A stretch of 34,190 bases of DNA from Opitutia bacterium (GTDB lineage Bacteria > Verrucomicrobiota > Verrucomicrobiia > Opitutales > Opitutaceae): assembly GCA_016199925.1 (NCBI GenBank), contig JACQFT010000001.1:1-34190 (forward strand). The letters are read 5' to 3'. Positions 24,145 to 28,218 of this stretch are shown here, piece by piece (position 1 is the stretch's first letter; every line of letters starts with the position of its first letter). The notes below the pieces were generated by a model. That model saw nothing but the letters and a program-made list of their open reading frames with translations. It had not been told where the DNA came from and searched no databases. A program made the translations under genes and the position numbers.

Positions 24145-24296
24145 CAAGGGCAAAAATACCTCGCGGCCGCCGGCGCGCGGAGGCGGCCCCTCGCCGTCGC
24201 TCCAGGGATGCCACTCGCCGCAATGGAGAGGACAGGCGTCGCAGGCCGTTTGCCGGCGTGGCCGTTCTCGGGTGCACTGCCCGGCAGCCCCGGCCC

Positions 24297-24899
24297 ATGA
24301 GTGATCTACGGCATCTCCTCCTGATTTGTTTCGGCGTTTGGGCTGCGGCCGACGCCGGCGGCACCACGGTCGTCCCGCCGGATTTCGCGCAGCTCGTGAA
24401 CGGTTCCGACTACGTCGTGCGCGCCCGGGTGGCGAAAGTCACCGCCGAGCCGCGCACGGTCGAGGGCCGCGCCCTCATCTTCACCCGGGTCGAATTCGAA
24501 GTGCTCGCCGTGCTCGCGGGCGCGCCGCCGCGCAATCTCGTGCTCGTCATGCTCGGCGGCAAGCTTGGCGACGAGGAGCTCTGGATCGGCGGCGCGCCGC
24601 GCTTCGCGGCGGGCGACGAGGACATACTCTTTGTCTCCGGCAACGGCGCGAACCTCCATCCGCTCTACGCGCTGGGCCACGGCCGCTATCCCGTCCGCCG
24701 CGATGCGGCCGGGCGAGAGTTCGTCGCGCGCAGCAACGGCGTGCCGCTGACCGGGGTCGCCGAGGTCGCGCTCCCGCTCGCGGAAGAACCGCCCGGTGCC
24801 GGCCCCGGGCCGAGGGGCGCCGCCGGCCGTGCGCTGACGCCCGCGGAGTTCGCGGCCGCGATCAAGCAAACGCGGGCCTCTTCCCTCCGTGAAAAATAG
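24297..24899 (+). CDS. Small exported protein preceding the metalloprotease gene
   Basis: A 200-residue protein with a signal peptide (MSDLRHLLLICFGVWAAADA). The mature part is beta-rich: YVVRARVAKVTAEPRTVEG and FTRVEFEVLAVLAGAPPRNL, followed by LVMLGGKLGDEELWIGGAPRF and a gap-free run to a C-terminal polar tail with Gly/Pro. This looks like a small periplasmic or extracellular domain of a kind often found next to matrixin-type proteases in Verrucomicrobia. I cannot name a family. The gene overlaps the start of the protease gene by 11 bases (shared GTG AAA AAT AG), indicating coupled translation. ATG 24297 was chosen for the signal peptide over an upstream in-frame GTG. Confidence 0.7.
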   Translation: MSDLRHLLLICFGVWAAADAGGTTVVPPDFAQLVNGSDYVVRARVAKVTAEPRTVEGRALIFTRVEFEVLAVLAGAPPRNLVLVMLGGKLGDEELWIGGAPRFAAGDEDILFVSGNGANLHPLYALGHGRYPVRRDAAGREFVARSNGVPLTGVAEVALPLAEEPPGAGPGPRGAAGRALTPAEFAAAIKQTRASSLREK

Positions 24900-25815
24900 A
24901 AACCCCTTCCGCCTTGCCGCCGCCCCGTGGGCCGCGTTGTTCGCCGTCGCTTCTGCCGCCGCCTTCACCTTCGACCGCGGCCCGACCGGCACGCCGATCT
25001 CGATCAACCCCGGTTCGTTCACGATGGCGATCCGGCTCGGCACGACGCCCGTGCTGACCGACGGCAGCGATTTCAGCACGAGCGTGCTCGCCGCGATGGA
25101 CGAATGGAACGCCGTGCTCGGCCGCCTCCAGTTCCTCGGCGTCATCCAGCCGCCGGGGGGCGTGCAGCTCGAGGAAGACCGCGTGAACGAAATTGTTTTT
25201 TCCCCGACGGTCTATGGGCAGGCCTACAGTCCTGGCGTGGTCGCCGTCACGATGTCGCGGCGGGCCGGCACTCCGCGGGCCGACGGCACGTGGCAGCGCG
25301 TGCAGGCCGACATTTTCTTCAACACCGCCAACACCTGGAACTCCTATCGCGGCGCGCGCCAGCAAAACCCGCTCGATCTCCGCCGCACCGCGCTGCACGA
25401 ACTCGGGCACGTGCTGGGCCTGGAGCACCCCAACGCCGCCGGCCAGACGGTCGCCGCGGTCATGAACAACAACGCCGCCGAGCAAAGCCTCACCGCCGAC
25501 GATGTCGCGGGCGGGCAGGCGCTCTACGGGCCGCCGGGCGCGGTCACCCGGCCGGCGAACAACGACTTCGCTGCCGCGGAGGAATTCGTCGGGACGGCGG
25601 CGACCGGCAACAGCTTCGGCGCGACGAAACAGCTCGGCGAACCCAATCACGCCACCGGCAACTTCGGCGGCGCCTCCGTCTGGTGGCGCTGGCCCGCGCC
25701 GGGCCGCGGCACGCTCACGCTCACGACCGCGGGCAGCGGATTCGACACTGTGCTCGCCGTCTATACCGGCGCCACCGCCGGCGAGCTCACGCAGCCCGCC
25801 TCCAACGCCGACGTG
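24889..25815 (+). CDS. Matrixin-type zinc metalloprotease, N-terminal part of a frameshifted gene
   Basis: Starts GTG at 24889 with a signal peptide (residues 1-25). The zinc site HELGHVLGLEH gives H170, E171, H174 and H180, the HExxHxxGxxH pattern of matrixin/metzincin proteases. A MNNNAAEQSLTADDVAGGQALYG Met-turn-like region follows. The next segment (ANNDFAAAEEFVGTAATGNS through SGFDTVLAVYTGATAGELTQPASNADV) is a PPC-like beta domain that is cut short. After ~25815 this frame turns into Arg/His-rich nonsense and runs to a stop at 26634, while the continuation of the protein is found in the next frame from ~25816. The gene therefore carries a +1 type shift, possibly with loss of the end of the PPC-like domain. 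Confidence 0.75.
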
Positions 25816-27250
25816 CCTCGCGTTCGCCGCCGCCGACGGCGGCACCGTGCCCGTCATCGCGACGCCGTTGCGCGCGCAACTGGTGACGACCGGCGGCACG
25901 GTTTCTTTTTTCGCGCCCGGCACGAGCGGCACCGTGCAATGGCAAATCTCCACCGACGGCGGCGCGACGTTCACCAACCTCGCGAACAACGCCACGTTCT
26001 CGGGCGTCACTACGCGCACGCTCACCGTCAGCAACGCCGGCGCGGGCAACGGCGCGCTCTATCGCTACGTGCTCACCGCCCCCGGCGGCTCCGTCGCGAG
26101 CAACGCCGCGCGCCTCACCGTCGCCGAAGCGTTCTTCCCGATGCCGGTCGCGCTCGCGACCGATGCGGCGGGGAATTTCTACGTGGCCGACAGCGCGAGC
26201 GACACCATCCAACGCTTCACCAATGCCGGCGAGATCACCCTCGTCGCCGGCACCGCGGGCCAGGCGGGCTCCGCCGACGGCACCGGCGCCGCCGCGCGCT
26301 TCAACGACCCGAGCGCGCTCGCCGTCGCGCCCGACGGCACGGTCTTCGTGGCCGACACCGCCAACGCCACCCTCCGCCGCATCTCCGCCGCCGGCGTCGT
26401 GACGACGCTCGCGGGCTCCGCCACCGCGCGCGGCAACACCGACGGACCGGGCGCGCAGGCGACGTTCTCCGCGCCGGCTGGCCTCGCGCGCGACGCGGCG
26501 GGCGTGCTCTTCGTCGCCGATTCCGCCACTCACACCATCCGGCGCGTCGCCGCCGACGGCACGGTGTCCACCTTCGCCGGCCTGGCGGGCGCCGCCGGCA
26601 CTGCCGACGGCACGGGTGCGGCGGCGCGTTTTAACCGTCCGACGGGTCTCGCTCTCGACGCCAGCGGCAACCTCTTCGTCGCCGACACGACCAACAACAC
26701 GCTCCGCCGCATCACGCCCGCGGGAGCCGTCACCACCCTCGCCGGACTTGCCGGCGTGAGCGGCAGCACCGACGGCACCGGCAGCGGCGCGCTCTTCAAC
26801 GGTCCGGCCGGAGTCGCGGTGAACGGCGCCGGCAACGTCCTCGTCGCCGACACCGGCAACTCCACCATCCGCCAGATCACGCCCGCCGGCACGGTCACGA
26901 CGGTCGCCGGTTTGTCCGGCATCGCGGGCCTCACCGACGGCACAGGAGCCGACGCGTGGTTCAACCAACCGCGCGCCCTCGTCGCGCCCGGCGGCGAGAT
27001 CACCGTCGCCGACACGGGCAACGCCGCCCTCCGCCGGATTGCCGCCGGCGGAGTCGTCACGACTTTGCAGCTCGCGCGCGCGGCGGCGCCGCCGCCCGCG
27101 GTCACCCCTCCGGCGCCGGCAGCTCCGCCGCCCGCGTCATCCGGCGGCGGCGGCGGTGCGCCGGGGGCCGCCTTTTCGATTCTCCTGCCGCTGCTGCTGC
27201 TGCTCGCGCGGCGGGCGCGGGAGAGCGGGGCGGGCCGCCCCGGGCGGTGA
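25816..27250 (+). CDS. Ig-like and NHL-propeller C-terminal part of the frameshifted protease gene
   Basis: This frame is open from 25502, but sensible sequence starts near 25816 (LAFAAADGGTVPVIATP). It encodes one Ig-like domain (VTTGGTVSFFAPG to SNAARLTV) and then six NHL-type repeats with the pattern P..LA.D..GN.FVAD...TIRR....G.V.T.AG, probably a six-bladed propeller. The end is Pro/Ala-rich, then SSGGGGGAPGAAF, a hydrophobic helix (ILLPLLLLLA) and RRARE. That Gly-rich stretch, helix and basic end is the layout of GlyGly-CTERM-like sorting signals. On its own this part lacks a start and signal peptide, so unless the shift is a sequencing error the product would not be exported. Confidence 0.7.
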
Positions 27251-27426: not shown

Positions 27427-28218
27427 ATGGCGCCGTCCGGGTGCGACGATGCGACCGTGCCTCCCGCTACTCGCTCCTTCCGCTGGGTCTTCGCCGCGTT
27501 GCTGCTCGCGCCGGGGGCGGTGTCGGCGCAAGTCACCGCGCCCGCGCCGGTGCGCGAGTATCTGTTCGCCGGCAATTTTTCCGACACGTTGGGCGGGCCG
27601 GACCTGCAGCCGCAGGGCGGGAGCGTGGTGGACGGGTCCTACTTTTTTGGGCCGGGCCAGGGCTTGCTGCTCGCGGATCTGTCGTTGGCCACCAGCACCT
27701 ACACGCTCGAGCTGGCGCTGACCTACGCCGCGACCGGGGGCTACCGGAAAATCGTCGATTTCCTGAACCGAGCATCTGATACCGGCTTTTATGTGCTGGG
27801 CAATTCGCTGAACTTCTACCCCGTGGCCGACTCCGGGCTCACCGAAGTCGTCGCGGGTCAGCCGGTGCACGTCGTCTTGACGCGCGATGCGGCCACCAGC
27901 GTGATCTCCGCCTACGTGAACGGGCTGCTGAGCCTGAGTTTCACCGATTCGGGCGGCCTCGGCGTGATCAACGGTCCGAATCGAGAACTCTATTTCTTTG
28001 TCGATGACTTGGCGACTGGAGGCGGCGAAGCTGGGGCGGGCTCGGTGGATTTTATCCGTCTCTACAATCAGTCGTTGGATTCGGCCCAGGTGCTTTCGCT
28101 TTTCCAGAACGGCCCCGCCGCCGTGCCGGAGCCGTCCGTCGCGGCACTGCTCGCGCTCGGCGCCGGCCTGCTGCTCCTGCGCCGCCGCCGACGCGCCGTC
28201 GCGGCGGGTCGGGATTGA
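27427..28218 (+). CDS. PEP-CTERM-anchored LamG-like exported protein
   Basis: A 263-residue protein with a signal peptide (RSFRWVFAALLLAPGAVSA) and a LamG/concanavalin-like jelly roll: VREYLFAGNFSDTLGG at the start, TYTLELALTYAATGGYRKIV in the middle, and FFVDDLATGG with VDFIRLYNQSLDSAQV near the end. The C-terminus is VPEPSVAALLALGAGLLLL followed by RRRRR, a textbook PEP-CTERM sorting signal recognised by an exosortase. The protein is thus sorted to the cell envelope or exported with a polysaccharide matrix. ATG 27427 is used; GTG at 27457 would also give a normal signal peptide. No exosortase lies in the window. The GlyGly-CTERM-like protein immediately upstream uses a different kind of tail. 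Confidence 0.88.
   Translation: MAPSGCDDATVPPATRSFRWVFAALLLAPGAVSAQVTAPAPVREYLFAGNFSDTLGGPDLQPQGGSVVDGSYFFGPGQGLLLADLSLATSTYTLELALTYAATGGYRKIVDFLNRASDTGFYVLGNSLNFYPVADSGLTEVVAGQPVHVVLTRDAATSVISAYVNGLLSLSFTDSGGLGVINGPNRELYFFVDDLATGGGEAGAGSVDFIRLYNQSLDSAQVLSLFQNGPAAVPEPSVAALLALGAGLLLLRRRRRAVAAGRD

Follow-up and report, generated by a model that had tools for sequence, protein, structure and literature searches.

The closest precedent of the gene pair described in this study is found in Listeria, in which the adjacent genes mtz and tim encode a secreted metzincin and a TIMP-like lipoprotein; the tim gene is located 3′ of mtz, the pair is phage-linked, and similar pairs are present in other Firmicutes, according to the accessible text of the report (PMC8235301). 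Proteins of the TIMP family carry Cys1-X-Cys3 at the mature N-terminus and contain three disulfides, and Cys1 coordinates the zinc, as given in the available part of another source (PMC9409782). The DNA analyzed here (the window; 34,190 nucleotides) represents contig C89 in a 3.79-Mb draft genome (264 contigs, 89% complete), whose nearest relatives, judged by the protease, are Opitutaceae MAGs. The window contains a matrixin gene broken by a change of reading frame and, upstream of it, a gene for a secreted protein (Table 1). TIMP-like/matrixin pairs occur three times in the source genome (C89, C136, and C130); the matrixin of the C130 pair runs past the contig end.

Table 1. Features of the protease locus in the window (L112, nearest relative; see text)
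Coordinates	Strand	Feature	Basis
24258..24899	+	Secreted protein, predicted TIMP/NTR-like OB-fold, conserved upstream partner of matrixins	ORF, Viterbi coding, fold, 69/79 loci (from the best 80 of 112)
24889..25815	+	Signal peptide, matrixin catalytic domain and first half of PPC, frame 1	PF00413, zinc site; signal peptide by eye
25809..25823	+	Break: 37 codons of L112 reduced to the single base 25816, net -110 bases	L112 alignment, codon-usage scores, family matches
25816..26634	+	Out-of-frame Arg-rich tail, read by the protease ORF as the sequence stands	ORF listing 24889..26634
25817..27250	+	PPC end, one Ig-like domain, NHL propeller, Gly-rich/hydrophobic/Arg tail and stop, frame 2	PF01436, four intact homologues, Viterbi coding

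Regarding the protease part, the profile PF00413 (Peptidase_M10) matched with 48.8 bits against a cut-off of 24, and the zinc site HELGHVLGLEH, followed further on by VMNNN, conforms to HExxHxxGxxH; H170, E171, H174, G177, and H180 are invariant in alignment A1. A propeptide with a cysteine switch is a feature of animal matrixins and lies outside the Pfam definition. The 309-residue protease part contains no cysteine and hence no such switch, the L112 protease contains one cysteine, and, judged from the start of the matrixin domain, there would be no room for a propeptide. The window protease is thus a matrixin by family match and zinc motif, whereas it differs from other matrixins in lacking the cysteine, in apparently having no propeptide, and in its fusion to PPC, Ig, and NHL domains. 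In the second frame, the NHL profile PF01436 matched with 119.9 bits over six stretches, and Viterbi coding reaches 27247. The tail at 27110-27250 is Gly-rich (SGGGGGAP...), hydrophobic, and Arg-ending; it gave 14 matches at E values up to 10 in the source genome and no fitting NCBIfam model, and the Gly-rich tail of several proteins of this genome is possibly a sorting signal. The next gene (27427-28215) has a VPEPS...LLLRRRRR end that is PEP-CTERM-like by eye, and NCBIfam gave no match on its stretch 28100-28215.

In the ORF listing, frame 1 is open from the GTG at 24889 to 26634, and frame 2 from 25502 to the stop at 27250. A codon-usage Viterbi model, trained on 476 kb of the source genome and making no use of homology, placed a frame switch at 25813/25814, the sole direct same-strand switch in the window; switch positions within 3 nats of the best extend over 25809-25823. 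On the 5′ side of the break, frame 1 scores +45.5 nats and frame 2 -64.6, and on the 3′ side the order is reversed, with +121.9 nats for frame 2 against -102.5 for frame 1. These log-odds are far beyond chance on both sides, and the passage of coding from frame 1 (matrixin protease) to frame 2 (Ig/NHL) at 25813-25817 is confirmed. The original prediction held the protease frame to be good up to NADV at 25815 and the next frame from LAFAAADGG onward, in agreement with the translations (frame 1, ...ASNADV to 25815; frame 2, LAFAAADGG from 25817).

Single-frame homologues with the architecture matrixin-PPC-Ig-NHL-Gly-rich membrane tail were found in G016 (854 aa), G005 (945 aa), and G047 (903 aa), and an intact single-frame paralogue of 1035 aa is encoded on C136 of the same genome. 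The proposal that a frameshift splits one matrixin-Ig/NHL gene is borne out by these four proteins, and the interpretation as two separate genes was rejected because the homologues are in one frame. In the survey of 252 family genomes, with matches in 58 (own paralogue included), 75 of the 78 matches pass the position of the break in one frame; the other three are the window itself, a match at a contig end (G197:C13), and a match that stops much earlier (G196:C342). All 32 rows of alignment A2 keep the lost stretch, and no relative with a PPC domain shortened at this place has so far been found among these rows and the 78 family matches. Judged from the sequences compared, the break is a singleton; in the accessible text of the GeneTack study, singleton frameshifts are regarded as likely indel mutations or sequencing errors (PMC3711429). 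Comparison with L112 gave dN/dS values of ~0.38 (281 codons) and 0.44 (69 codons), and neither half of the broken gene contains a stop. Since both halves still look constrained and lack stops, the damage would be recent or artificial. Clean and constrained frames on both sides would also be expected if programmed ribosomal frameshifting joined them. This explanation is hardly credible and was rejected: the homologues are in a single frame, two and a half strands would still be absent after the shift, and the region 25770-25850 contains no X XXY YYZ heptamer with an A/T second triplet, no five-base homopolymer, and no CTTTGA or CCCTGA. Neither of the marks of programmed frameshifting, conservation of the break in homologues and a slippery motif, was found, and the earlier argument against it from the lack of a slippery heptamer holds.

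The PPC-like domain had been described in the original prediction as short, with a deletion as a possible cause, and alignment with an intact orthologue had been suggested for counting the missing codons. A first scan of genome contigs with the window protein alone as the query gave no match; the second scan identified L112 (Opitutus sp. isolate WM.026, a MAG), which is the nearest relative with 76% identity. The L112 frame continues uninterrupted across the break, with 37 PPC codons opposite window base 25816; window positions 25816 and 25823 correspond to L112 6847 and 6964, and 6 bases in the window thus stand against 116. The net loss relative to L112 is 110 bases (36 codons + 2), a value that may be off by some whole codons because the ancestral sequence is deduced from a relative of 76% identity. 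The L112 contig stops 348 bases beyond the match, and the NHL part lies outside this comparison. Mapped onto the predicted model of the intact L112 domain (mean pLDDT 85.4), the deletion takes away residues 93-129, which include two complete strands (101-106 and 111-118) and half of a third (125-134). The fold matches the collagenase CBD/PPC structures 3jqw, 1nqj, and 5sv5, none of which reaches an E value of 0.001, and the domain scores 20.9 bits with PF04151, under the cut-off of 25.9; Pfam PPC gave no match on the window part. The L112 domain is alike in fold to bacterial PPC (PF04151) and the clostridial collagenase CBD, with a complete beta-sandwich, whereas the window lacks its second half. 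One deletion would therefore account for the shortened PPC domain as well as for the change of frame, which a single-base error would not explain together. Although a single base gained or lost would join both frames, the PPC domain would still be ~36 residues short. A single-base error within a naturally short PPC domain would amount to two events at the same spot, a natural 37-codon loss and an unrelated base error, and it was rejected as very improbable in view of the A2 rows (32/32 with the stretch) and the family matches (75/78 passing the break). A larger deletion including an Ig domain was also considered, as three intact homologues have two Ig domains, and was dropped because L112 and G016 have the PPC domain directly before the Ig type of the window.

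The frame break alone would be ordinary damage or an assembly error. As the preferred reading, the protease gene, once encoding one protein, probably lost ~110 bases in a single recent loss-of-function deletion within a two-gene unit. The ancestral locus would have consisted of a gene for a secreted TIMP/NTR-like protein followed by a gene for a matrixin-PPC-Ig-NHL-membrane tail protease, and a single ~110-base deletion would have removed the second PPC half and put the rest out of frame. The product today would be a secreted protease domain followed by the first half of PPC and a meaningless Arg-rich stretch of ~270 residues, and the Ig/NHL part, in which no signal peptide of its own is visible, would presumably not be made or exported. 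The function of the protease gene would thereby be lost.

Alternatively, the gene may be intact in the organism, the ~110 bases having been lost in contig building. Such an assembly or chimera fault is a real possibility, though a somewhat less probable one. The draft MAG is fragmented and incomplete, the lesion is single, both flanks are open and constrained as if the gene were used, and no other family match has the lesion. A published study, in its available text, attributes many of the apparent pseudogenes of assemblies to errors (PMC11017572). On the other hand, no repeat common to both breakpoints, at which an assembler could misjoin, was found in L112, which served as the proxy (a 10-mer shared between the compared L112 stretches is the overlap of those stretches). 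The hairpin in the lost stretch of L112 is not unusual either (z 0.31); hairpins and direct repeats, absent as candidates from L112, were also rejected as causes of a deletion. No left-over of the lost piece was found in the assembly: at the DNA level there was nothing alike elsewhere in the MAG among the 40 of 262 candidates scored, and at the protein level the best match (51%) was the paralogue. Frame breaks called by codon usage numbered, depending on the penalty, 8 or 6 in 476 kb of the MAG and 6 or 3 in 400 kb taken from a single-contig relative, which is 1.1 to 1.7 times as many per kb and no clear excess, these counts being few events called by the model without a homology check. On balance, a recent deletion in the sampled genome is somewhat preferred over an assembly fault. 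Further candidate frame breaks by codon usage alone lie in L063 (2356-5002), L070 (13846-14722 and 18645-19998), and L090 (12902-15390). In L046 (2695-4786, contig C80), NHL matches occur in two frames of one strand; this may represent two genes or another broken one, because the run-on filter was not passed.

The neighbour gene overlaps the protease start by 11 bases, and Viterbi coding covers 24258-24896. No family model in Pfam or NCBIfam matched its product, and Pfam searches of 53 members of the neighbour family gave single stray hits with E values of 0.11 or worse. From the best 80 of 112 protease loci in the second contig scan, 79 were kept, among which a neighbour homologue is located upstream of the matrixin in 69 (44 of the 45 loci with PPC and 25 of the 34 with matrixin alone), elsewhere in the locus in 5, and in none of the remaining 5. 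Titles of the loci in this set from the best 80 of 112 include Verrucomicrobia, Acidobacteria, one Acidimicrobiia, and one Cyanobacteria MAG, of which the phyla represented by single MAGs may be binning errors, and some loci come from the same record. A search with the neighbour profile gave 34 matches in 19 of 288 phylum genomes. Among the 30 loci listed from these matches, the metzincin motif HExxHxxGxx[HD] is present in 27 (26 downstream; upstream in L253) and absent from L255 (locus incomplete), L256, and L258; this count is not fully independent because the profile itself was built beside matrixins.

The model of the neighbour has a mean pLDDT of 87.2. In the Foldseek search, ranks 1-6 are TIMP-2 and TIMP-1 (E 2.0e-3 to 5.5e-3, best probability 1.00; no match at E <= 0.001), followed by agrin NtA and other TIMPs. 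Structural alignment by VIA gave Z 8.4 for N-TIMP-3 (3cki_B; rmsd 2.9, 112 aligned), 8.3 for the complement C5 NTR domain, and 8.2 for agrin, where a Z near 8 can mean just a common arrangement. Because these three values are so close, the fold speaks for an OB-fold of the NTR type without by itself pointing to TIMP in particular. The neighbour is accordingly predicted to have a TIMP/NTR-like OB-fold of the N-TIMP type. In five TIMP alignments, residue 25 of the model lies opposite TIMP residue 4 (chain numbers 4, 304, and 1004, the last two taken as offsets), and weak sequence alignments to TIMP-1 and TIMP-2 show the same offset of 21, by which T22 of the model would be the equivalent of TIMP Cys1. 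Zinc coordination by TIMP Cys1 is through its backbone, and in TIMPs the mature N-terminus set free by signal cleavage acts as the inhibitory wedge. In the 53 members, position 1 is T in 45, position 2 T/S in 43, position 3 V in 47, position 5 P/A in 51, and position 6 P in 47, and signal-peptidase-like residues at -1/-3 precede position 1 in 47 of 52 by a lax rule. Position by position, the predicted mature N-terminus reads T-[TS]-V-x-[PA]-P, with its first residue aligned to TIMP Cys1. Here T-[TS]-V stands for C-[TS]-C; the Cys1-X-Cys3 motif and three disulfides of the TIMP family proper are absent, and beyond position 1, 36 of the 53 members contain no Cys. At the profile level, hhalign of the neighbour alignment (A3) gave a probability of 2.3% with TIMP and 1.65% with TIMP-1 + TIMP-2. 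The score of A3 with TIMP-1 was 19.7 against a maximum of 18.7 in 100 shuffles, whereas that with TIMP-2 (14.7) was below the 95th centile of shuffles (15.8), and a search of PDB sequences with the A3 profile gave no TIMP at E values up to 10.

By analogy, the neighbour may inhibit the matrixin. An external inhibitor would make sense because the proteases appear to have no propeptide, judged from the domain start, and are nearly free of cysteine. We tentatively propose, at somewhat below an even chance, that Verrucomicrobiota, Acidobacteriota, and others possess a counterpart of the animal MMP/TIMP system, in which the free amino terminus, T-[TS]-V-x-[PA]-P, of a nearly cysteine-free secreted TIMP-like protein, encoded directly ahead of a propeptide-less matrixin, occupies the zinc site of this co-made protease. 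If so, the window holds one such unit, with the protease broken in an accessory domain and the inhibitor gene whole. About equally conceivable is that the neighbour is an NTR/OB-fold protein with another role towards the matrixin (chaperone, substrate, or localisation factor) than that of an inhibitor: the complement and agrin NTR domains score like TIMP, the TIMP cysteines are missing, and the Listeria TIMP-like protein gets cleaved by its metzincin in the accessible text of that report (PMC8235301). The conservation of the predicted mature N-terminus, in the TIMP register, speaks against this alternative. The frame break itself matters little, as one gene is damaged or mis-assembled, and an inhibitor pair would matter more. 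With a widespread and unnamed family of nearly cysteine-free proteins beside matrixins, the origin of the MMP/TIMP pairing, by shared ancestry or by convergence, would become testable on two small soluble proteins.

The neighbour family is unnamed in the libraries searched, and no TIMP-like family was found described for Verrucomicrobiota or Acidobacteria in the literature searched, a set with few subscription journals; metzincin/TIMP-like pairing as such is already published for Firmicutes. Animal TIMPs (TIMP-1, -2, and -3) are the best Foldseek and VIA matches of the neighbour, which has in common with them the register of the N-terminus, a Thr/Ser as second residue, and a Pro at position 5 or 6, whereas it has no Cys1-X-Cys3, no disulfides, no visible TIMP C-terminal domain, and weak sequence similarity. 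Like the Listeria mtz-tim pair, as far as its accessible description goes (PMC8235301), the present loci place a secreted metzincin beside a TIMP-like gene, an adjacency seen in 69 of the 79 loci from the best 80 of 112. In contrast to Listeria, in which tim comes after mtz, the TIMP-like gene here precedes the protease gene and runs into its start. Tim of Listeria is a lipoprotein, whereas inspection by eye showed no lipobox in the neighbour, and the phyla are Verrucomicrobiota and others; the two systems are likened by gene pairing and predicted fold.
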